A stretch of DNA of 43,719 bases from Aquificaceae bacterium (lineage in GTDB: Bacteria > Aquificota > Aquificia > Aquificales > Aquificaceae): assembly GCA_025057455.1 (NCBI GenBank), contig JANWWY010000009.1:1-43719 (forward strand), read 5' to 3'. The position numbers and the translations under genes were made by a program. Shown here piece by piece: positions 19,063 to 31,253 of the stretch; the stretch's first letter is position 1, and every line of letters starts with the position of its first letter. The notes beneath the pieces are model-generated. The model saw only the letters and a list, made by a program, of their open reading frames with translations, was not told where the DNA came from and made no database searches.

Positions 19063-20076
19063 ATGAGAAAAGAGATTTATTACTCTTTGGGAGCGGAGGT
19101 TGCTGCACTAACAAGTTTCTTCTTTATGCAGAATTTTTATCAGGTTATATTTGTCTTGGCTTCTCACCTTATTGCCTGCATTCTGATTTCACCACTACTT
19201 CTTACACTGCTTCCGGACAGATATAAGAAACACAAGGGCAGGTCCTTGATATTGTTGGTTTCTTTAGGATTTTTCCTATTTGTACCTGGTTATGTTTTGC
19301 TCTTGATAACTACCATTTACCTTCTTAGAACCCAAAAGGTAAGGCCCATAACCAATATGGAAAGCTTTTCAATAGAAGAGCTTTTCACAAGCAATGTTTT
19401 ACCTAAAATTAGCACGCTGGGTGAAGGTCCCCTTTACATTGTTAGTAAAATCAGGGATATGGATGAGAAAAAGTTTAATGTTTTATCCTCTCTATTGCTC
19501 GAGATGAAAAACCCAAGAATATTGGATTATTTGTCCACCGCTTTAGGCAGTAGGCATGATGAGCTAAGGCTCTATATATTTTCTACCTTGCTTAGGCTTG
19601 AGAAGTCTATACAGGAAAGGATAAGTTTACTAAATAAAAATCTTGAAAATAATATTTCAGATACCGAAAAAGCCATTACTCTTTTCGAATTAGCTCAGAG
19701 TTATTATGACTTAGTTTACTTTAAATTGGTGGACAAGGAACTCGAAAGGATTACCCTCCAAAAGGCTGAAGAGTATCTAACAAAAGCTATAAACATAAGG
19801 AAGAATCCGGAGTTTTACATACTTATGGGCAAGATAAAGCTGGTGGAGAGGAATTATGCTTCAGCAGAAGAATTCCTACTTAAGGCTTTGAACTTAAATC
19901 ATATACATCCTATACGTTATATACCCTATATTGCGGAGGTTTATTTTAGCAAGGGTGAGTATCAGAAGGTAAAGAAGATTATTTTAGAAAACTTAGAATA
20001 TTTAAAATTTTCTGCAAACCCATACATATATTACATAGTGGAGTTCTGGAGGGATATGGAATGGAAGTCCTCTTGA
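19063..20076 (+). CDS. pelE: Pel polysaccharide synthase subunit PelE
   Basis: The 337-residue protein is close in length to known PelE. Two N-terminal membrane hairpins (about 8-50 and 58-88) are followed by a cytoplasmic helical region. TPR-like repeats lie at about 195-330, for example NPEFYILMGKIKLVERNYAS, AEEFLLKALNLNHIHPIRYI and AEVYFSKGEYQKVKKIILEN. In Pseudomonas aeruginosa PelE joins PelD, PelF and PelG in the inner-membrane synthase complex. The assignment rests on this architecture together with pelF directly after it (16-bp overlap) and the rest of the locus; sequence alone is weakly conserved in this family. ATG 19063 follows the only good promoter. Confidence 0.85.
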   Translation: MRKEIYYSLGAEVAALTSFFFMQNFYQVIFVLASHLIACILISPLLLTLLPDRYKKHKGRSLILLVSLGFFLFVPGYVLLLITTIYLLRTQKVRPITNMESFSIEELFTSNVLPKISTLGEGPLYIVSKIRDMDEKKFNVLSSLLLEMKNPRILDYLSTALGSRHDELRLYIFSTLLRLEKSIQERISLLNKNLENNISDTEKAITLFELAQSYYDLVYFKLVDKELERITLQKAEEYLTKAINIRKNPEFYILMGKIKLVERNYASAEEFLLKALNLNHIHPIRYIPYIAEVYFSKGEYQKVKKIILENLEYLKFSANPYIYYIVEFWRDMEWKSS

Positions 20077-21584
20077 ACAAAGGTAAGCCTCAGGTTTTGA
20101 TAATAGCAGAGGGTACATATCCCTACATACGCGGTGGTGTATCTACGTGGATTCACGATTTGATAAACGGGCTTAAGGATTTTACCTTTGGCGTAGTCTT
20201 CTTGGGCGGTAGAAGAGAGGATTACGAGGACATAAAATACACTCTTCCAGACAACTTGGTGTATCTTTCAACCGCTTATCTTTTTGAGGAGAAAGAACAG
20301 CCTAAACCAAAGCACATAAGGGGCGAAGATGCCGCTTTTGAACTAATAAGGAGGATGCATAAGAACTTTAAGAACGGTTCTATGAGTGTTCCAGAAGAGA
20401 TTCTAAGCTACAGATTTTTCACGGAAGTGGTAAAACACGAAGACTTTCTCTACAGCAAAAAGGCCTGGGAGCATATAGTGGATATGTATTCAAACTATGC
20501 CATAGTGGAGCCCTTTGTGGATTACTTTTGGAACATAAGAAATTTACACACACCGTTATGGGTGGTAGCGGATGTAGCGAAGAGGATGGAGGGTTTGGAT
20601 TTTGACATTATACACAGTCCCTCTACTGGCTATGCAGGCTTCTTATCCTCCTTTCTAAAAAGGAGTTCAGGCAAACCTTTTATACTGACAGAACATGGCA
20701 TATACACTAGAGAAAGGAAAATAGACCTCTTAAGCGCAGAGTGGCTCGTAGACAAAAGACTTTTTATTCATAAGTATACGGGGGATGTATCCGCAATGAG
20801 GAGAGTTTGGATAGAGTTCTTTATTCGTCTTGGAAGTATAGCATACTCAAGTGCCAACGTTATAGTATCACTTTTTGAAACCGCCAAGAGAATACAGATA
20901 AGCTACGGAGCGGACCCTCAAAAGTGTGTGGTAATACCCAATGGTGTAGACATTGGGCTATACTCAGAGGCTCTCAAAAACCGTCAAGAGCCATTACCTA
21001 AGGTAGTTGCACTTATTGGTAGGGTAGTTCCAATAAAGGATGTAAAGACCTTTATAAAGGCTATTAAACTACTTGTAGAAAAAATTCCTGATGCGGAAGG
21101 ATGGGTGGTGGGACCCACAGATGAAGACCCCGAATATTATGAGGAGTGCCTTAATCTTGTAAAGGTTTTAGGATTGGAAAACAAGGTTAAGTTTCTAGGT
21201 TTCCAAAGAACAGTGGAAATACTGCCAAAGGTTGGTGTATTAACACTTACATCTATAAGTGAAGGTATGCCCTTCATAGTTTTAGAGGGTTTTGCTGGTG
21301 GGGTCCCCTGTGTGGCTACAGATGTCGGTTCCTGCAGACAGCTCATATACGGTGGATTGAACCAAGAGGATGTAGCTCTGGGGAGAGCTGGTGAGGTCGT
21401 TCCAGTTAGAGACGCCAATGCTCTTGCAGAGAGCTACGCAAGGCTCCTTACTGACCAGACTTTTTGGAAAAACTGTCAAGAGGTTGCCCTAAAAAGGGTC
21501 AGAAGGTTTTATTCAAGAGAAACCTTTCTTGAAAATTATAAAAACTTATACGGGGGATACTTAAATGGCAGGCATAGCCTTTGA
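20061..21584 (+). CDS. pelF: Pel glycosyltransferase PelF (GT4)
   Basis: The 507-residue protein matches PelF in length and layout. The N-terminal GT-B half opens PQVLIIAEGTYPYIRGGVST, typical of PelF, followed by WIHDLINGLKDF. The C-terminal half has VIPNGVDIGLYSEA, KVVALIGRVVPIKDVKTFI, VVGPTDEDPEYYEEC and the GT4 E-x7-E motif in SEGMPFIVLEGFAGGVPCVATDVGS. PelF is the soluble cytosolic transferase that polymerises the sugar nucleotide (a UDP-N-acetylhexosamine) for Pel. It is held at the membrane by PelD, PelE and PelG. GGAGGG lies upstream of its ATG. It overlaps pelE and pelG, consistent with one operon. Confidence 0.95.
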   Translation: MEVLLNKGKPQVLIIAEGTYPYIRGGVSTWIHDLINGLKDFTFGVVFLGGRREDYEDIKYTLPDNLVYLSTAYLFEEKEQPKPKHIRGEDAAFELIRRMHKNFKNGSMSVPEEILSYRFFTEVVKHEDFLYSKKAWEHIVDMYSNYAIVEPFVDYFWNIRNLHTPLWVVADVAKRMEGLDFDIIHSPSTGYAGFLSSFLKRSSGKPFILTEHGIYTRERKIDLLSAEWLVDKRLFIHKYTGDVSAMRRVWIEFFIRLGSIAYSSANVIVSLFETAKRIQISYGADPQKCVVIPNGVDIGLYSEALKNRQEPLPKVVALIGRVVPIKDVKTFIKAIKLLVEKIPDAEGWVVGPTDEDPEYYEECLNLVKVLGLENKVKFLGFQRTVEILPKVGVLTLTSISEGMPFIVLEGFAGGVPCVATDVGSCRQLIYGGLNQEDVALGRAGEVVPVRDANALAESYARLLTDQTFWKNCQEVALKRVRRFYSRETFLENYKNLYGGYLNGRHSL

Positions 21585-22935
21585 ACTGAAAAAAATTTTA
21601 AGAAAAAAAAGCCTGTCTTCCATATTTACTGCCTTTGGCTATTCCTTTGCCCTCAGCTCTGGTCCATACTTTATAACCATAATATCCCTCATACTTATTA
21701 GCTTTCTTATGCAGAGTTTTGTTGAGAAAAGGGAGATTCTAACACAATTCCAGGTATCAGTAACTCATATAATAGCCTTTAGTCTAATTTTAAGTGGCTT
21801 AATAAACCTATACCTTATACGTTTTCTTGCGGACATTTTGTTCATGAAAAAGGTTGAGGCTGTAGTCCCTAACATGATGGGTGCTGTCCTTATTAACATG
21901 TCTTTAGGCTTTTTCTTGTCTTTCCCCTTTAGTATGATTTTTATAGCCCCTCATGCCAGTTATTCTTTTGCCTTTTTATTTAGTTTTGCCATAACTACAT
22001 TGATGGGAGTTTGGACCCTCAACATAATACTAACTGGTTTTAAGAGCTACAAGTACATACTATTTTCTTACGCGTTAAGCTACGCACTTTTCATAGTTTT
22101 TTCTTTTATATTTGTTAGATTTGGACTTTCTGGTCTTATCTTTGCCTTTGCTTTATCTAATTTTCTGATATTCTCTCTGTTTTTGTCTTATCTTCTTAAA
22201 AACCACTATTCAAGTAATCTACTTTCTTTTGACTTCTTAAAGGAAAAAAGGTATAGAAGTTTAATGCTTACGGGATTTTTTTACAATTTTGGTTTATGGG
22301 CTGATAAGTTAATCTTTTGGTATCATCCATACACAAGCACCAGCGTTCTTGGTCCTCTAAGCTACTCTGTGGTCTACGATATACCAATATTTCTTGCCTA
22401 TCTATCTATAGCTCCTGGGATTTCAACCATGTTTTTAAAAATAGAGTGGGAATTTGCAGAATACTATGAAAGGTACTACGATGCAGTAAGAGGTGGTAGT
22501 ACCTTAGACAAAATATACCTATACGGTGATGAACTTATAAGGTCGGCACGTTCTGTGCTTTTGGATACCTTTAGAGTTCAACTAATATTCAGTATATTCA
22601 TAGTGATAATTCAAGAACCTGTATTTAACCTTTTTAGGATTCCAAAGATATACACTCCACTCTTTGATATTCTTCTTTTTGGCACGACAATGCAAGTAGT
22701 ACTACTGTGTATTTTATCGCTTATGTTCTATTTTAACAAGCTAAATTATGCTCTTATAACCACCTTCATATTTGCTACGAGTAATTTCCTCTTAAGCCTA
22801 ATGAGCATCTACATAGGTCCCTTTTTCTATGGATACGGCTTTGTAGTTTCAGTTTTTTTGAGCCTCATAATAGGAATAATTCTTTTGAGGAGGTTTCTGC
22901 ATGACATTCATTATTACACTTTTATGCATATTTAG
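21565..22935 (+). CDS. pelG: Pel inner-membrane transporter PelG
   Basis: The 456-residue polytopic protein has about twelve membrane helices. It begins MAGIAFELKKILRKKSLSS followed by FGYSFALSSGPYFITI, the conserved PelG start, and has the GLWADKLIFWYHP segment and a WEFAEYYERYYDAVRGGSTL loop. PelG is a MOP-superfamily-like protein proposed to move the growing polymer through the inner membrane. It overlaps pelF by 20 bp and pelA by 35 bp, so translation is probably coupled. Confidence 0.95.
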   Translation: MAGIAFELKKILRKKSLSSIFTAFGYSFALSSGPYFITIISLILISFLMQSFVEKREILTQFQVSVTHIIAFSLILSGLINLYLIRFLADILFMKKVEAVVPNMMGAVLINMSLGFFLSFPFSMIFIAPHASYSFAFLFSFAITTLMGVWTLNIILTGFKSYKYILFSYALSYALFIVFSFIFVRFGLSGLIFAFALSNFLIFSLFLSYLLKNHYSSNLLSFDFLKEKRYRSLMLTGFFYNFGLWADKLIFWYHPYTSTSVLGPLSYSVVYDIPIFLAYLSIAPGISTMFLKIEWEFAEYYERYYDAVRGGSTLDKIYLYGDELIRSARSVLLDTFRVQLIFSIFIVIIQEPVFNLFRIPKIYTPLFDILLFGTTMQVVLLCILSLMFYFNKLNYALITTFIFATSNFLLSLMSIYIGPFFYGYGFVVSVFLSLIIGIILLRRFLHDIHYYTFMHI

Positions 22936-25657
22936 TTTTAGCATGGCAAAAGATTTATCTGTGGGTTTTATGATATACGGAGACCCGATACCAGAAGAGG
23001 CTCTGTATGCCTTTGATTGGTTAGTGGTAGACCCAGACAGCACGCACACAAAAAGGGTTATGAACGCTTTCTATCTAAGGGATAGAAGGGTAAAGCTCAT
23101 AGCTTATGTCAGCGTAGGTGAGGCGGAACCATACAGAAACTATTTTAAAGAGGTTAAGAAAGATTGGATACTGGGAGAAAACAAGGTATGGAAGTCCTAT
23201 GTAACGGACCTTAGAAGTGAAGAGTATATAAACTTTTTACTTGAAAGAGTTTTCCCGAGGCTTAAGCAGTTTGACGGATTTTTCTTAGACACTTTAGATA
23301 GTCATCAACTTTTCTTGAAAGAAGGTAGAGATTTAGAAACTGCAAGGAATAATTTAGCTAAGCTGGTAAAAATCCTTAAACAAACCTATCCAGACAAGCT
23401 CATTCTTTTGAACAGAGGATTTGAAGTTATGGAAGCAACCAGAGGCTATGCGGATGCCATTGTTGCAGAAAGTCTCTTCCATGGTATAACCTACGATGAA
23501 AAAAAAGAGTATAAACCAATGAAAGCCGAAGATACTCAATGGCTGATGGAAAAATTAAACAAGGCGGTAAGGCTAGGCTATAAGGTAATAGTCATAGACT
23601 ATGTAGACCCAAGAGATAGGGACCTACAGCTGAGGACGGCAAGGAAGATATATGAACTTGGTTTTGTACCCTATGTTTCTGATAAATACCTGCGAACCTT
23701 TGGAGTATCTTCGTATAAGCTAAAACCGAGAAGGATATTGATGCTTTACAGTAGGGAGCTGTACAAGGACCCATCCATCAGCAAACTGAGCAGGATAATT
23801 CAGCCTTGGCTTGAGTATCTGGGATATGTGCCAGTACTTATGGAAATAGAAAGGGCAATACTTGATGACAGGTTAAACTACTTTATGGGAGACATATACG
23901 CTGGAATAGTGGTGGAGGGAAGTGGTTATAAAGATGGGGAAAAACTCCACAAATGGCTGTTGAAAAAGAAAGAAGAAGGCATAAAGGTTTTCTTCCTTGA
24001 TAGCTTTGGTTTTCCCGAAGAAAACCAGTATCTTAAGGACTTTGGCATAAAGGTCATAGGTAGATTAAGTTTAGGACAAAGTTATATTGCTGAGTCAAGT
24101 TCCTTTGAATTTTTTGAAGTACAACCGGTTTTTGATAGATTACCTATGACTATCCCCAATGGCGTGAAGGAACACATAAAGGTGAGGGCTGGTGGCGCAG
24201 TTTTCTATCCTCTTGCCGTAACCGAGTGGGGTGGGTATGCTCTTTTTGGTTCCTTAACGGTTCAACATGAAGATTTAACACTTTTTGTCGTAGACCCACT
24301 AAAGCTGTTTAGCAAAGTTTTTGAACCCTACAAGCTTGTGCCCGATGTAACTACTGAGAACGGTAGAAGGATTCTCCTTGTCCACATAGATGGCGACGCC
24401 TTTTTTGGAAGGGCGGATTTTGAGCCTTCCAAAAACGTAGCGGAAGTAATAAGGGATGAAATAATAAGGAAGTATCCCATTCCACACACAGTGTCCATAA
24501 TAGAGGGTGAAATAGCACCCCACGGACTCTACCCTAAAGAGGCACCAAAGTTAGAAGAGATAGCGCGCTCTATATTCTCCCTTGATAATGTAGAACTAGC
24601 ATCCCATACCTTTTCTCACCCATTTAAGTGGCAGGAATTAGAAATCTTAGAAAAAACGATTGGAGAAGCTGTTTATCACAAGGACGTTGCCTTTAACCTT
24701 CCGATAGAGGGCTACAAGTTTGACCTGAGAAGAGAGATAGAGGGTTCTATTGAGTATATAAACCGTCAGCTTGCACCAAAAGATAAGAAAGTGAAAGTTT
24801 TTTTGTGGTCCGGCGATGCAAACCCATCGGAGGAAGCTATAAGGCAAACTTACGAAGCTGGCGTTTATAACATAAACGGCGGATACACTTGGATTAACAG
24901 GGAAAATCCTTATCGGATGTTTATTGGCCCCATGGGTGTAAATAAGGGGGAATACTTCCAGATTTATGCACCCATTATGAATGAAAACATATACACTAAC
25001 CTATGGACGGACTTTTATGGCTTCGTTCGTGTTATAGACACCTTCTTAATGACAGAAAAGCCCTACCGCATCAAACCCATGAACATATACTATCACATGT
25101 ACTCGGGACAAAAGATAGCCTCTTTGGAGGCCCTGAGGAAGGTCTACAGTTGGGCACTTAGCCAAGAACCTATTCCACTCTTTCTTTCTGAGTATGCCCA
25201 AAAGGTGCTTGACTTTAGAAGCGCAGCCTTTCTTGAACACATAGCTGACCAAAGTTTTATAGTCCGAAGTGGCAGTGCTTTAAGGACTCTAAGGATTGAC
25301 CGCAGAGTTCACGTGGACACATCAAGGAGTAAGGGCGTAGTAGGCTATAAACAGCACGGAGATGTCACTTACGTTAGCTTGGACGCTTCTGGGGATTATG
25401 TAGTAGCAGTTTCAGAGAATCCACCAGCCTTTAACGTGTTAAGCTCCAATGGCAGAGTATTAGATTTTATACAAAAGGATGGATATTACAGGTTTACTCT
25501 GAAAGCTTATGTACCACTCGAGCTGGAGCTTGTAGCCCCAGGATGCAAATTACAGGTAAGCCCAACGCCAGACAAGCAAGAAAAAATCGGAAGCTTAGTA
25601 AAAATAAGCTATGTGAGGAATAAAGATGTTAGAGTGGAAGCCTACTGTAAAAAGTAA
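22901..25657 (+). CDS. pelA: Pel hydrolase/deacetylase PelA
   Basis: The 918-residue protein has a GAGGAGG ribosome site and a signal peptide (1-16, ending SMA). Domain one (about 17-270) is a GH114-type glycosidase with LIAYVSVGEAEPYR, QFDGFFLDTLDSH (Asp130) and DAIVAESLF (Glu190, matching the essential acid of PelA). The middle region (280-480) resembles the reductase-like linker of PelA. Domain three is a polysaccharide deacetylase with HIDGDAF (Asp497, Asp499) and ASHTFSHPF (His569, His573) as metal and catalytic residues, and a C-terminal beta region. PelA partly deacetylates the GalNAc-rich polymer and can cut it in the periplasm. Both active sites look intact. Confidence 0.93.
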   Translation: MTFIITLLCIFSFSMAKDLSVGFMIYGDPIPEEALYAFDWLVVDPDSTHTKRVMNAFYLRDRRVKLIAYVSVGEAEPYRNYFKEVKKDWILGENKVWKSYVTDLRSEEYINFLLERVFPRLKQFDGFFLDTLDSHQLFLKEGRDLETARNNLAKLVKILKQTYPDKLILLNRGFEVMEATRGYADAIVAESLFHGITYDEKKEYKPMKAEDTQWLMEKLNKAVRLGYKVIVIDYVDPRDRDLQLRTARKIYELGFVPYVSDKYLRTFGVSSYKLKPRRILMLYSRELYKDPSISKLSRIIQPWLEYLGYVPVLMEIERAILDDRLNYFMGDIYAGIVVEGSGYKDGEKLHKWLLKKKEEGIKVFFLDSFGFPEENQYLKDFGIKVIGRLSLGQSYIAESSSFEFFEVQPVFDRLPMTIPNGVKEHIKVRAGGAVFYPLAVTEWGGYALFGSLTVQHEDLTLFVVDPLKLFSKVFEPYKLVPDVTTENGRRILLVHIDGDAFFGRADFEPSKNVAEVIRDEIIRKYPIPHTVSIIEGEIAPHGLYPKEAPKLEEIARSIFSLDNVELASHTFSHPFKWQELEILEKTIGEAVYHKDVAFNLPIEGYKFDLRREIEGSIEYINRQLAPKDKKVKVFLWSGDANPSEEAIRQTYEAGVYNINGGYTWINRENPYRMFIGPMGVNKGEYFQIYAPIMNENIYTNLWTDFYGFVRVIDTFLMTEKPYRIKPMNIYYHMYSGQKIASLEALRKVYSWALSQEPIPLFLSEYAQKVLDFRSAAFLEHIADQSFIVRSGSALRTLRIDRRVHVDTSRSKGVVGYKQHGDVTYVSLDASGDYVVAVSENPPAFNVLSSNGRVLDFIQKDGYYRFTLKAYVPLELELVAPGCKLQVSPTPDKQEKIGSLVKISYVRNKDVRVEAYCKK

Positions 25658-26657
25658 GTTTTTTACAAATAGGGAAATTTTAATTTACCTTTTTCTGTTT
25701 GTAGGTGTGTGTGTTTTACTTTTCCCAAAAGAGCGTTTAAAAACGTACGTACTTGTTCCAGAAAGGGTAAACTTGGAACTTTCTATCATTTATGCTAAAA
25801 ACATACTTAAAACACAAGAAGACCCACTATTTAGACTTCATCTTGTGGACAGCCTAATACAGGCCGGTAGACTTGAAGAAGCGGAAAGAGAGGCAAAGAA
25901 ACTAATAGGTACTCAATACACCCAAAGGGCGTATCTAGCACTTTTCAAAATAGAAAAAATAAGATACTTTTCTGGGAAGATGTCAAACAAAAACCTTCTG
26001 CAGGAGTATCTTCTAAGTGCTCTTGAGTCTACCAAAGAAAAGGAACTTCTCATAGAAATACGAAAGGAAGCTCTATCCATGGACCTGCCAGAGGTTGTTA
26101 TGATTTCTACGGAAAGGCTGTACATGTTGGACAGGAATGTAAATTGGTTAAAAGAAGTCTATAATTACGCAATAGCTTTAGGTAAAACAGAAAAGGCACT
26201 CATCTATGCCTTCGAGCTTTATAAATCCGACCCAAGAGGTAGAGAACAGTATATTAACGACATAGTTTACCTGCTCAAGAAAGAGCCATCTGGACAACAA
26301 ATTTTAGAAAAACAGAAAAAATTCATCGGAGAAGCTCTCTACCAAAATATAATCACCAAGTTAACCACAGAAGTAGTTGCTTCAGCTAACACTCCAATAG
26401 CTATAATAGAGTACACGGAGCTTTTTAAGAAAACAAAAGATTACAGTGAAAGAAAAAAGCTTTTTAGAAAAATAGTCCAGTTATACCTATGGAGCGGAGA
26501 TTACCAAGGTCTTAAGGTATTCATTTCAACTTATTACAAAGAATTTATAAGAGATAAAGAATTAGCCAGGTTTATCCTGAAATCCTCAATGGAAACGGGC
26601 GACACTAATTTTGCGCAGGAAATTGCAAAAGATATTAAGGAGGTATACTTGAAATGA
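25626..26657 (+). CDS. pelB: Membrane-anchored TPR protein, N-terminal half of a split PelB
   Basis: The 343-residue protein has one N-terminal membrane helix (REILIYLFLFVGVCVLLF, about 16-33) and then only helical repeats, including LFRLHLVDSLIQAGRLEEA, YAIALGKTEKALIYAFELYK and YLWSGDYQGLKVFISTYY. The start has GAGG 7 bp upstream and lies within pelA (32-bp overlap). Known PelB is one long protein with an inner-membrane helix, periplasmic TPRs and an outer-membrane barrel. This ORF corresponds to the first third. Its stop overlaps the next start (ATGA), and the next protein has its own signal peptide, so this is a designed two-protein split, not a frameshift. In PelB the TPRs contact PelA. 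Confidence 0.78.
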   Translation: MLEWKPTVKSKFFTNREILIYLFLFVGVCVLLFPKERLKTYVLVPERVNLELSIIYAKNILKTQEDPLFRLHLVDSLIQAGRLEEAEREAKKLIGTQYTQRAYLALFKIEKIRYFSGKMSNKNLLQEYLLSALESTKEKELLIEIRKEALSMDLPEVVMISTERLYMLDRNVNWLKEVYNYAIALGKTEKALIYAFELYKSDPRGREQYINDIVYLLKKEPSGQQILEKQKKFIGEALYQNIITKLTTEVVASANTPIAIIEYTELFKKTKDYSERKKLFRKIVQLYLWSGDYQGLKVFISTYYKEFIRDKELARFILKSSMETGDTNFAQEIAKDIKEVYLK

Positions 26658-29401
26658 AGTCTATGGTTATCCTCTCCGCTTCTTTATCCTTAGCTATTGT
26701 GACAACACCCGTATGGCCCCAGAATAAATCCGTGAAAGAAGAATCTGATAGACAGCTTCTGCAACTTTTACTGTCAACTTTTTTAGGTGCAAACGATTTA
26801 AAAAACGCCTTTGATGTTACAAAGAGAGGCATACAAGAATATCCTGAAGACCCTTATTGGTGGGAGTGGCATAGCAAGGTGTCCGATTGGTTAGGATACA
26901 GAGAAGAGGCAATAAAGGCAAAAATGAAACTTTTGGATTTAAAGCCTTCAGAAAAAATCATAAAAGAAACCCTTGATTATGCGGTATCTGCCAATCGTTT
27001 TGATTATGCAGTGGAGATTATATCCAGATACCCACAGCTTATCAGCGGGATTAAACTGGAAGACTTGCTTTACATATACGTAAGCGCTGGAAAAATAGAA
27101 AACTTTGTAAAGCTTTTGGAAGGTTTATATCTGGAAGAAAAAAAGCCTGAATATCTACACTACCTGGCATTGGCTAATTTTAGATACGGAGAATATACTA
27201 AAGCGGAACACTACATGAAAGAGCTTGAATATTTAAGACCTTTAAACTTATCAGAACTTATGCTTTACTCTGATATACTTAATTCCCAGAGGAAGCTGAA
27301 AGAAAACTATAGCCTTCTTAAGAGGTATCTCAACAAGTTAGAGGGACAACCTACAGAATTATTAGTATCTTACTATAAAAGGCTCTCATCCCTAGCATGG
27401 TTAATGAAGGATGTTGAAACATCTGCAATTGCTGCGGAAGTTTTAGACAGGATGGGAAAGGCTGAGGATGAGGAATATGTAAGACTTTATTTTTATTATT
27501 CAACGAGGAAAGATTTTGAAAAAGCTGTAGGTTACGCAAGAAGAGGATACGAAAAAAGTAAGGATGAATACCTTTTTACAATATGGACTGAAGGATTAAG
27601 CGCTCTCAGAAGATGGCAAAGTGTTATAGATGCCTTTGAGGCATACGATAGGAAGAGGTTATTGGATAATCCCTACCTCCTTTCCGTGTATGCAAAAGCT
27701 CTCTATATGTCCAAAAAGCAAAAAGAAGCAAGGAACCTAATCTTGTGGGCGCTAAAGGAGAGAAAATCTAAACAGATACTGTCTAACAGTATATATCTTG
27801 CAGTTAGTTTTAATGACACAAAACTATCAAAATACATTCTTAAAAACTTTAAGGAAGAAGAAAAACAACTACCCAGAGAATTTGCACTTTTGTACCTTGC
27901 CTTTCAAGAAGGACAGAAAGCTAAAAACCTCATGGACATGATTGATGAAAAGGATAGGGATGACCTACTAATATATTCCTTTGCCTTGTATACGCTTGGC
28001 AGAGAAGAGGAATCAAACTTTATAAGGTCAAACTTGGTAAGAGAGCTCTCTCAACAAGAAGAGATTAATCAAGACACTCAAAAAACAAGAATATTACTTA
28101 CGAGTGGCGTGGGTATCTTGCCGGCGATAATCTTTCAAGAGCTATCAAAAGTAGGAGAAGAGAACATAGAAGCGGAAGTATGGCTTGATATATATCTTTC
28201 TTATATTTTCGTGAACTCCTTCTACGAAAGGGCGGAGTACCTCAGGAACATTAGAAAGGAAACACTAAAACCATGGATGGAACTAAGCTTAGCATTGAGA
28301 AACAACGACAGGGAGCAGTTAAGCAAGCTCTTGGAGGAGATGGCTGATGCACTGCCTTACAGGGATGTAGTGGAAGCCTACAGAAGATTAGGAGCGATGC
28401 AAAAAGCCATGGAGCATGCACAGCAGAGCCTTGAGAAGAACCCAGAGGATGCTCTTGTTTACGAACAGCTTAGACAGCTTACTTACGAATACGCAAACAA
28501 ACTTCAGGTAGGTACAGCGTATAGAAAGCTTGAAAAAACGGAGTACATTACCTACGATGTCTCCTTTACCTTCCCTCTCGATGAAAAGTGGTATCTTTTG
28601 TACAGCGGAGAGGGAGGATTTCTCCTTTCCTCCCGCAACCCAGGCTACAAAAACTTACCCTACAGAATTCACTACAATAGGTTGAATTTGAAAAGGCTTA
28701 CCTCCAATGGTTATTACCAGATTGGTATCAATTTTGGGAAGGGTCTTGATAGCTTTGCAGGTTTAGAGTTTAACCTCTCCAGAAGACTTTTCAGAATAAA
28801 CAGCTTAAACCTATCCCTTTATTACAACAAAACTACCACAGAAAATTTGATTGCTTATGTTGGTCTGCTTAAGGATGGTATTTCCTTGAGTGCCTTTAAA
28901 TCAATAACTCCAAGGATTGGGTCCAGCTCCAGCCTTGAATATAGCCTGTTTAAGTCCCAGGATATGAAGTATATCGGCAGTGGGCTAATTGGATATGCGG
29001 ACATATTTTACAAGCTAAAATACGCATACCCAGATTACACCTTCAGATTGTACACCTCCTTCTGGTCCTACGAAGAGAATGACAAGAAGAGCCACAAAGT
29101 ACTCAATCTTTACACCTATGAAAATCCAAGAGTGCTCCCTAAGGACAGCATTACTATAGGTTTGGGTTTTAACTTTGGAGTCAATATAAAGGAAATGATA
29201 AGTAGACCAATTTTGCCCTTCTTAGATACTGAAATATACTACAATACAGACGCTGGCTTTGGATACGGGATTTCCTTGGGGTTATCTGGAAGATTAAGAG
29301 GGAAAGATGTGCTTTCTGCTGGCATGAGAAACTTTTATAACTTTCGTACTACGGGAGGTTCCTACGTGGAACTATTTATTAACTACAGAATAAACTTCTA
29401 A
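26654..29401 (+). CDS. pelB: Outer-membrane Pel export porin, C-terminal PelB (TPR plus beta-barrel)
   Basis: The 915-residue protein has a signal peptide (1-22, ending near VWPQ), a long TPR superhelix (about 30-610; for example EYLHYLALANFRYGEYTKAE, VVEAYRRLGAMQKAMEHAQ) and a C-terminal barrel from about 630 with alternating strands (YLLYSGEGGFLLSS, YRIHYNRLNLKRL, YYQIGINFGKGL), closing in ELFINYRINF with a terminal Phe. In P. aeruginosa PelB the barrel with the lipoprotein PelC exports Pel. Here the porin carries its own Sec signal. The 1258 residues of both halves together approximate full-length PelB. It is the last gene of the plus-strand run and faces pelD. Confidence 0.85.
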   Translation: MKSMVILSASLSLAIVTTPVWPQNKSVKEESDRQLLQLLLSTFLGANDLKNAFDVTKRGIQEYPEDPYWWEWHSKVSDWLGYREEAIKAKMKLLDLKPSEKIIKETLDYAVSANRFDYAVEIISRYPQLISGIKLEDLLYIYVSAGKIENFVKLLEGLYLEEKKPEYLHYLALANFRYGEYTKAEHYMKELEYLRPLNLSELMLYSDILNSQRKLKENYSLLKRYLNKLEGQPTELLVSYYKRLSSLAWLMKDVETSAIAAEVLDRMGKAEDEEYVRLYFYYSTRKDFEKAVGYARRGYEKSKDEYLFTIWTEGLSALRRWQSVIDAFEAYDRKRLLDNPYLLSVYAKALYMSKKQKEARNLILWALKERKSKQILSNSIYLAVSFNDTKLSKYILKNFKEEEKQLPREFALLYLAFQEGQKAKNLMDMIDEKDRDDLLIYSFALYTLGREEESNFIRSNLVRELSQQEEINQDTQKTRILLTSGVGILPAIIFQELSKVGEENIEAEVWLDIYLSYIFVNSFYERAEYLRNIRKETLKPWMELSLALRNNDREQLSKLLEEMADALPYRDVVEAYRRLGAMQKAMEHAQQSLEKNPEDALVYEQLRQLTYEYANKLQVGTAYRKLEKTEYITYDVSFTFPLDEKWYLLYSGEGGFLLSSRNPGYKNLPYRIHYNRLNLKRLTSNGYYQIGINFGKGLDSFAGLEFNLSRRLFRINSLNLSLYYNKTTTENLIAYVGLLKDGISLSAFKSITPRIGSSSSLEYSLFKSQDMKYIGSGLIGYADIFYKLKYAYPDYTFRLYTSFWSYEENDKKSHKVLNLYTYENPRVLPKDSITIGLGFNFGVNIKEMISRPILPFLDTEIYYNTDAGFGYGISLGLSGRLRGKDVLSAGMRNFYNFRTTGGSYVELFINYRINF

Positions 29402-29432: not shown

Positions 29433-30740
29433 TTAAACCTTAACTTCCCTTTGTGTCAGCTTTGATAGAATATCCTCAGCATCCTCTACAGGATAGGTCT
29501 GATGGCTAATCCCAAGTTGAGCGTAGTTGGCGCCTTTAAATTCTCTAACCACATTTTCCATCCTCTTTATAAAGCTGTATGCACCACTTAAGTTGGTTAA
29601 GGGTAAAAGGACAAGCATAGACCTGTCACCGTATTTGGATACATAGTCTAAACCCCTTGCGTTATCAGAGAAAAGATAGTAAATACTCTCATCCCAACTA
29701 TCAAAGTTAAAAACAACCAAACTAGAGTCCACATCATACCGTTTTTTAAGCTGGGCGCACTTAGCTATTTCTTTTATTGTTTCCACATCTACATCTTCAA
29801 ACTTTTTGTGTATATCTCTAATGGCTTCCAACTCATAGTAATCCCATAGAATGTAATAAAGTAGCATGCTTATGGAAAGTATGTTATCTTTGTTTAAGTT
29901 CATAAAAGGCATCCTTTCTATAACCACTGCGTATTTTAAACTTTCCTCAAAGTGTATAGGAATGAAACAAAGGTAAGTGGTTAAGCCATCTACCGCTGAA
30001 GCTGGTATGTATACTGCTTCGCCATGCTCAAGGGCGTATTCCACGAGTTTGTCTTTTGTATTAAGCTCTCCCATACCGCCTACGCTTACAAGATTTACAA
30101 ACTTTCCATCTCTAAATTCATACAGACCAGCCTTTTCTATTGCATACAGATTAGAAACCAATGTGAATGTCCTTTTTAGAGCCTCTTCCAATGTAATACC
30201 GCTTAGTATGTCGCGTTTTACATCTTCAAGAAAACCTCTAATGCTGATAGGTCTGCTTATGTGATAACTTTCCAGCCTATCATGAGAAAGCTTTAAAACA
30301 TACAAAGATTTAGCAATTCCTCTGAGCTTATCACTTATATATTCCACTCTTTCCTGGTTTTGCTGTAGTATTCTGTTCCAGTAAAAGTGAAATTCTGAAA
30401 AAATGAGTAAAAACAAGAAAAGGTATAACAGATAAGAGCCTTCTAACCTATTGTAAATAAAGTATTGTATAGCAGTAAAAAGCGCAGTGTATATTGTCCC
30501 AACGATGAAACCATAGTATAGAGTAAGGACGGCAAGGGGGAGTAGATGAATTGCTATTGAGTGTCTGTTATTCATAAATAGTGGGTCTTCCTTGTTTAAG
30601 AAAAAGCCTATAGCATAAACCAAAACAAGAAATATGGTAACTTCTACTAATACAATCTTTAAGTTTGTTCCCCTCCTAAAATACTCATCCTTCCCAAATC
30701 CTGTAAGTCTCTGTCTTATTATATTACCTAGGGAAAACAT
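29433..30740 (-). CDS. pelD: c-di-GMP receptor PelD
   Basis: The 435-residue protein has four membrane helices (about 28-48, 62-80, 82-98 and 102-122), the SHDRLESYHISRPISIRGFLEDVKRDI linker seen in PelD, a GAF domain (about 180-305) and a degenerate GGDEF domain (about 320-430). The I-site is present as R362-GLD-365, and the GGDEF signature is replaced by YGDRS (370-374), so no cyclase activity is expected. In P. aeruginosa, c-di-GMP binding to the RxxD site of PelD switches on Pel synthesis, and PelD binds PelE, PelF and PelG. Its start overlaps the pelC end by 17 bp on the minus strand, so pelC and pelD form an operon opposite the other pel genes. Confidence 0.93.
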   Translation of the reverse strand: MFSLGNIIRQRLTGFGKDEYFRRGTNLKIVLVEVTIFLVLVYAIGFFLNKEDPLFMNNRHSIAIHLLPLAVLTLYYGFIVGTIYTALFTAIQYFIYNRLEGSYLLYLFLFLLIFSEFHFYWNRILQQNQERVEYISDKLRGIAKSLYVLKLSHDRLESYHISRPISIRGFLEDVKRDILSGITLEEALKRTFTLVSNLYAIEKAGLYEFRDGKFVNLVSVGGMGELNTKDKLVEYALEHGEAVYIPASAVDGLTTYLCFIPIHFEESLKYAVVIERMPFMNLNKDNILSISMLLYYILWDYYELEAIRDIHKKFEDVDVETIKEIAKCAQLKKRYDVDSSLVVFNFDSWDESIYYLFSDNARGLDYVSKYGDRSMLVLLPLTNLSGAYSFIKRMENVVREFKGANYAQLGISHQTYPVEDAEDILSKLTQREVKV

Positions 30741-31224
30741 CGGGCAGTATTTTGTTTATCAGTTTTTGTGTTAGCGTGGATACGGACTGATAATACCATC
30801 CACTCTTGGAGGCTGTAGCGGTATATACTATCCTATTATCCTTTACAGAATAAACCTTAAGGGTTATGCTAACCGCCGGTTCGCCATCTATGCCTGCCTT
30901 ATACCTAAACTCGTTAACAGAACCTGTTATGGCGTAATCTACACCCTTGTCTTGTAGGTCTCTAATGAGTCTGTTTATCTCTTCTGCGCTGTATTCTTTC
31001 TGCTGATAGGTGAATGCGACCCTTTTTAGATTGTATCCCTTTGAGGAAGCAACCCCTTCCGTTATGGATGCTACCCGCAAACCAGCGAGTGGAGTTTCAG
31101 TATTGTTTTCAAAGGGCAAGATGGTAATGGTTGGTCCATCCTTCGGGCTCTTGTGTAGGTTCACAACGGTAGAGGAACAAGAGAAAGCAAAGAACACTAC
31201 GGGAGCTATTAATAACTTTTTCAT
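30724..31224 (-). CDS. pelC: Outer-membrane lipoprotein PelC
   Basis: The protein is 166 residues from ATG 31224, chosen over the ATG at 31239 because GGAGGAAAAT directly precedes it. The signal peptide ends in a lipobox-like FFAFSC with Cys16, slightly atypical. The mature part has TITILPFENNTETPLAGLRV, GVDYAITGSVNEFRYKAG, AVSITLKVYSVKDNRIVYT and SGWYYQSVSTLTQKLI, the alpha/beta fold of PelC and of LpoB/CsgG-like lipoproteins. PelC of P. aeruginosa (about 172 residues) forms a dodecameric ring beneath the PelB pore. Size, lipidation, neighbours and the otherwise complete locus support the call. Confidence 0.87.
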   Translation of the reverse strand: MKKLLIAPVVFFAFSCSSTVVNLHKSPKDGPTITILPFENNTETPLAGLRVASITEGVASSKGYNLKRVAFTYQQKEYSAEEINRLIRDLQDKGVDYAITGSVNEFRYKAGIDGEPAVSITLKVYSVKDNRIVYTATASKSGWYYQSVSTLTQKLINKILPDVFPR

Positions 31225-31253
31225 ATTTTCCTCCTCCATCCTTCTATTTAAAC

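Follow-up and report, generated by a model that had tools for sequence, protein, structure and literature searches.

A PelB encoded as two proteins in Aquificota: a membrane-anchored TPR half and a separately secreted TPR and barrel half

The stretch of DNA analysed here (the window, 43,719 nucleotides in length) lies on contig C66 of an Aquificaceae genome assembly of 1.42 Mb, which comprises 66 contigs and is 99.7% complete. It carries a complete locus for the biofilm polysaccharide Pel, in which pelEFG, pelA and two pelB genes on the + strand are convergent with pelC and pelD on the - strand:

19063..20076, + strand, pelE-like: membrane helices and TPR, with weak TPR matches
20061..21584, + strand, pelF: GT4 glycosyltransferase (Pel synthase); NF038011, 609.5 bits against a cut-off of 100
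21565..22935, + strand, pelG: inner-membrane Pel transporter; PF16933, 398 bits
22901..25657, + strand, pelA: periplasmic Pel hydrolase/deacetylase; GH114, 57.9 bits; overlaps the start of pelB1
25626..26657, + strand, pelB1 (product B1): N-terminal half of PelB, 343 aa; ORF, with a profile built from 35 homologues
26654..29401, + strand, pelB2 (product B2): C-terminal half of PelB, 915 aa; PF24604, 89.9 bits
29433..30740, - strand, pelD: membrane protein with degenerate GGDEF; PF16963 (PelD_GGDEF), 43.2 bits against a cut-off of 27
30724..31239, - strand, pelC-like: lipoprotein with a weak LpoB match

The PelF GT4 synthase and the PelG transporter, which together mark a Pel biosynthesis locus, are both present. 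The pelE-like protein agrees in family and position with proteins at the pelE position of named pel operons, and the pelC-like lipoprotein has a profile match to the protein at their pelC position. Hydrolase and deacetylase domains are both found in PelA, for which the corresponding activities are predicted; the deacetylase motif HIDGDAF (HxDGD) is kept when the protein is aligned with PelA of Pseudoalteromonas and Paraburkholderia. PelD is a predicted c-di-GMP receptor, having a degenerate GGDEF domain and the sequence RGLD, which aligns with the c-di-GMP I-site motif (RxxD) of named PelDs. Gene order varies across the phylum. In the window, pelD and pelC (29433-31239, - strand) are inverted and converge on pelEFGAB1B2; in many other Aquificota loci all genes share a strand in the order C-D-E-F-G-A-B1-B2, and in genome G040 F-E-D-C is convergent with G-A-B1-B2.

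The original prediction held that PelB is divided here into an inner-membrane TPR protein and an independently secreted TPR/porin. On rechecking, the coordinates of the two ORFs, their lengths of 343 and 915 aa and their ATGA overlap at 26654-26657 were exact, and the description of both products was borne out. B1 has one hydrophobic helix at approximately residues 17-35 followed only by helix pairs, and its AlphaFold2 model (mean pLDDT 88) consists of a membrane helix and TPR-like helix pairs. The membrane helix is of the uncleaved type and is followed by the motif [FY]P-K/R, and all 35 homologues have the [FY]P in this place. B2 has a hydrophobic N-terminus, TPR helices spanning residues 27-613 and 16 strands at 616-914, which form a 16-stranded barrel in an AlphaFold2 model with a pLDDT of 90. 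It scores 89.9 bits against the Pfam family B-barrel_PelB_C (PF24604), for which the cut-off is 31, and in a Foldseek search the best match of the model among solved structures was P. aeruginosa PelB (9h80_M; TM-score 0.85 on the target, rmsd 2.6). A Foldseek search of the PDB with the B1 model gave generic TPR superhelices only.

The second gene has initiation and export signals of its own. A strong Shine-Dalgarno sequence, AAGGAGG, lies approximately 10 nt 5' of the pelB2 ATG (26637-26656, + strand), within the 3' end of pelB1; 0.04 matches of this type are expected in the window. A Sec-like N-terminus was scored by a crude rule in 37 of 42 B2 homologues, and a hydrophobic segment also opens each of the five that the rule missed. 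The signal peptide of the window B2 is atypical in its c-region and cleavage site (MKSMVILSASLSLAIVTTPVWPQ).

Comparison with P. aeruginosa PelB shows how the two products divide it. The profile of 35 B1 homologues matches PelB residues 54-251 collinearly, and that of 39 B2 homologues matches 9h80_M (1193 aa) at 284-743, at 809-1061 and weakly at 1141-1175; B1 and B2 together therefore correspond to one PelB, cut between two repeats. The B2 profile also matches 5wft_A, the PelA-binding PelB fragment 332-436. In P. aeruginosa PelB, residues 1-36 form the inner-membrane helix, TPRs 1-19 span residues 69-726 and PelA requires TPRs 9-14 (PMC12022489). Taken with the profile positions, these limits place the break between repeats slightly upstream of the PelA site, and the site itself on B2. 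In a joint alignment the break falls at residues 270-317 of five proteobacterial fused PelBs and at residue 361 of an Aquificota fused PelB. The summed helical length of B1 and B2 (approximately 311 + 587 residues) is similar to that of fused P. aeruginosa PelB, approximately 840 residues as judged from the domain boundaries given in PMC12022489. The last repeat of B1 and the first repeat of B2 (from the window and from loci L046, L047 and L055) both align to approximately residues 362-388 of the Aquificota fused PelB (L050); this overlap of approximately 25-29 residues hints at a duplicated boundary repeat, with a register that is unstable against the proteobacterial fused PelBs.

The features of a PelB outer-membrane exporter are thus distributed over two proteins. 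The C-terminal PelB-type 16-stranded barrel is on B2 in the structural model, and profile matching places the TPR scaffold, including the PelA-binding TPRs (5wft, PelB 332-436), on B2 as well. The N-terminal inner-membrane helix is on B1 and absent from the barrel protein. Since there are two ORFs here and in 39 Aquificota loci, in place of a single chain, we classify the system as a split PelB and not as a canonical PelB. B1 and B2 are complementary PelB halves, B1 with the membrane helix and the first TPRs and B2 continuing from the next repeat, and B2 holds its own export signal together with the PelA-binding TPRs, the stalk and the barrel.

A survey of PelB architecture across the thermophilic Aquificota, suggested with the original prediction, showed that the arrangement is widespread. 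PF24604 was found in 45 of 136 Aquificota genomes, and B1 lies directly 5' of B2 in 39 loci from three families, with a 4-nt overlap (-4) in 26 of the 39 (the start in L002 having been corrected). B1 overlaps the end of pelA wherever both share a contig. In genus g8 (L033/L086, L034/L087 and L037/L102) the order is B2-C-D-E-F-G-A-B1, so that B1 stays behind pelA, the halves lie six genes apart at opposite ends of the locus and both are kept; at this distance, the halves need not be assembled co-translationally. Phyla beyond Aquificota were sampled through plasmids only, where a megablast search gave no match, and a scan of genome contigs gave one locus only.

Two readings would make the division of PelB in the window only apparent. 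One is that it is a sequencing or assembly artefact or a recent frameshift, or that ribosomes shift frame at the ATGA in a programmed way and so make a fused product, as the 4-nt overlap of two ORFs in different frames might suggest. We regard this as having next to no chance of being correct. The split recurs in 39 genomes and is for that reason not an assembly error; the homologues, spread over three families, keep two ORFs, B2 has its own Shine-Dalgarno sequence and signal, and in genus g8 pelCDEFGA separates the genes. The genus g8 gene order and the conservation across the phylum thus refute frameshift, assembly error and programmed frameshifting, and the original claim that this is not a recent frameshift stands. 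The other reading is that B1 is an unrelated TPR protein, or a duplicate of PelE, beside a PelB that has been shortened. Matches among TPR proteins arise readily, and the B1 profile also matches designed TPR proteins, but B1 matches PelB 54-251 in order and aligns pairwise with residues 28-386 of the fused PelB of a relative (L050), from the membrane helix on. On the N-terminus of L050 the B1 profile reaches 201.6 bits, compared with 58-69 bits on the phylum's other long TPR ORFs. The fused PelBs of L050, L076, L085 and L096 also have, as judged by eye, the helix-[FY]P-K/R motif, and pelE is separately present at 19063-20076. We consider this reading very improbable, and it was rejected on the ordered PelB match and the L050 scores; the suspicion that the first ORF belongs to another system is not upheld. 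The PelB split in Aquificota is old and conserved, and apparently functional.

The exceptions to the two-protein form are informative. Two pel loci are present in genome G096: L080 is split, and the other has a fused PelB of 1252 aa (L050 583-4341, with L100). The fused gene occupies the same place in a C-D-E-F-G-A-B order, reconstructed from contigs C155 (C-D-E-F-G-A) and C292 (the end of A and fused B), which overlap by 143 bp at 98.6%; the bin may be contaminated by another Aquificota. The fused protein is a Rosetta-stone link between B1 and B2. In a PelB tree, which is a quick one with long branches and from which an ORF of L097 taken as PelB had been dropped beforehand as it looked like a spurious frame, it groups with two split loci (support 99) and is nested inside the split clade. 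Forcing all split loci into a single clade on this quick tree was rejected (AU p 5.7e-5). It follows that either the halves were re-fused once or fission took place more than once.

Other genomes divide PelB elsewhere. In G064 (L065 4300-8855) pelB is present as three genes, encoding a membrane-anchored B1, a 529-aa secreted protein made up of TPRs only, and a further secreted protein of 673 aa with two SPOR domains and the barrel. On plasmids of Azospirillum thermophilum and A. lipoferum (L075 2087-6809 and L081 1970-6725) PelB is split nearer the barrel. As in Aquificota, a membrane-anchored TPR protein and a separately secreted barrel protein are encoded, here between pelA and pelC; however, the break is much later, leaving an anchored half of 1018 or 992 aa with nearly all of the TPRs and, in A. 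thermophilum, a barrel half of 526 aa. Fused PelBs are encoded in gamma- and betaproteobacterial plasmid loci. In the pelF/pelG loci of Sulfitobacter and Cereibacter (L082, L083), where no PelB was recognised, a 'polysaccharide biosynthesis/export family' protein is encoded.

In 15 of 40 homologues the signal of B2 (or, in G064, that of the barrel protein) is directly followed by a peptidoglycan-binding SPOR domain, and Pfam confirms it in 10 of 39 at E <= 0.01, plus G064. The loci with single or double SPOR domains are L042, L051, L054, L057, L059, L061, L062, L063, L065, L067-L071 and L079. The domain (PF05036) is absent from the window B2, and none was found in any B1 or fused PelB. L042 has SPOR and its close relative L049 lacks it, indicating a recent gain or loss there.

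The original prediction is supported in part: its further proposals, that the split uncouples the two membranes and that a bridge has to form by TPR-TPR or PelA contact, go beyond these results. We think that B1 and B2 probably do the job of one PelB jointly, by non-covalent end-to-end docking of their TPRs near PelA. B1 would stay in the inner membrane beside PelD, PelE, PelF and PelG and receive Pel, and B2 would sit in the outer membrane inside a PelC ring; genes for a PelC-like protein and PelA are present at the locus. Docking would join the C-terminal repeat of B1 to the N-terminal repeat of B2, PelA would bind immediately downstream of this seam, perhaps as a clamp, and a continuous non-covalent TPR path would then span the periplasm. 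Pel would pass along the B1 groove and its continuation in B2, be deacetylated by PelA near the seam and be exported by PelC and the barrel, and in some relatives SPOR on the new N-terminus of B2 would tie it to peptidoglycan. Within each half, the repeats beside the seam rank near the top for conservation (B2 46-75, 98th percentile; B1 301-330, 88th percentile). This conservation, the fused form, the retained helical length and the location of the PelA-binding region on B2 next to the seam all fit re-assembly, although seam conservation could alternatively reflect folding or capping of a TPR end.

A different arrangement, which seems to us plausible but distinctly less probable, is that there is no continuous bridge. 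B1 would then assist PelDEFG and PelA at the inner membrane, taking up or threading the polymer as it is made, and B2 with PelA and PelC would form an independent outer-membrane export complex, by analogy with the separate TPR protein and porin of alginate export. PelA would be the only link, and the B2 complex would be held by peptidoglycan through SPOR in some lineages. The genus g8 loci, where B1 is tied to pelA more stably than to pelB2, point in this direction, as do SPOR domains in 15 of 40 homologues, which would attach B2 to the wall and not to B1, and the separate breaks in Azospirillum and G064. Those breaks fit a tolerant modular chain, but also halves that work without a continuous bridge. 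Against it stand the marked conservation of the repeats on both sides of the seam, the nesting of the fused form in the split clade and the retention of total TPR length; we favour docked halves. More speculatively, and in our view rather unlikely, B2 may after fission have become an exporter anchored to peptidoglycan by SPOR domains gained repeatedly at its N-terminus, with the PelA-clamped seam acting as a regulated joint by which the polymer path is opened and closed, and not as a fixed trans-envelope bridge.

A division of PelB has been seen before. The legend to Fig. 5(iii) of Bundalovic-Torma et al. 2020 (PMC7112194) names 'pelB fission ... in aquatic thermophilic species' among its genomic-proximity patterns, and this is very likely the same phenomenon as the Aquificota split, which reduces the novelty implied for it. 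The legend phrase is brief, and the accessible text of that paper does not give species, topology, the signal peptide, SPOR domains or fused relatives. A search of the main texts of the open-licence literature turned up no account of the topology, signal peptides, SPOR domains, separated genus g8 order or nested fused form. In a 2025 structural study of PelBC (PMC12141448), PelB is regarded as a single chain with the potential to bridge both membranes, and the Aquificota genomes put this one-chain assumption to the test. Natural breaks in PelB occur at several points, after the early TPRs (Aquificota), near the barrel (Azospirillum) and into three pieces (one genome), and the chain may have been rejoined once. 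The thermostable, separately encoded halves also offer a practical system for addressing the need for a continuous TPR path, the place where PelA docks and the role of peptidoglycan anchoring.

The closest known system is that of P. aeruginosa, which has the same pel gene neighbours and whose PelB (PA3063; 9h80, 5wft) has the inner-membrane helix, TPR scaffold, PelA-binding TPRs, helical stalk and 16-stranded barrel in the same order. That PelB is one chain of 1193 residues, whereas the window encodes two, with the break at approximately PelB residue 280 and a second chain that carries its own signal. A TPR scaffold combined with an outer-membrane barrel for a synthase-dependent polysaccharide is also found in AlgK/AlgE (alginate export), BcsC and PgaA. 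AlgK and AlgE resemble the split PelB in being separate proteins, AlgK being an outer-membrane lipoprotein that is not anchored in the inner membrane; BcsC and PgaA are single chains. The Aquificota split bears on whether a single rod physically joining both membranes is indispensable for PelB and for the similar BcsC and PgaA.
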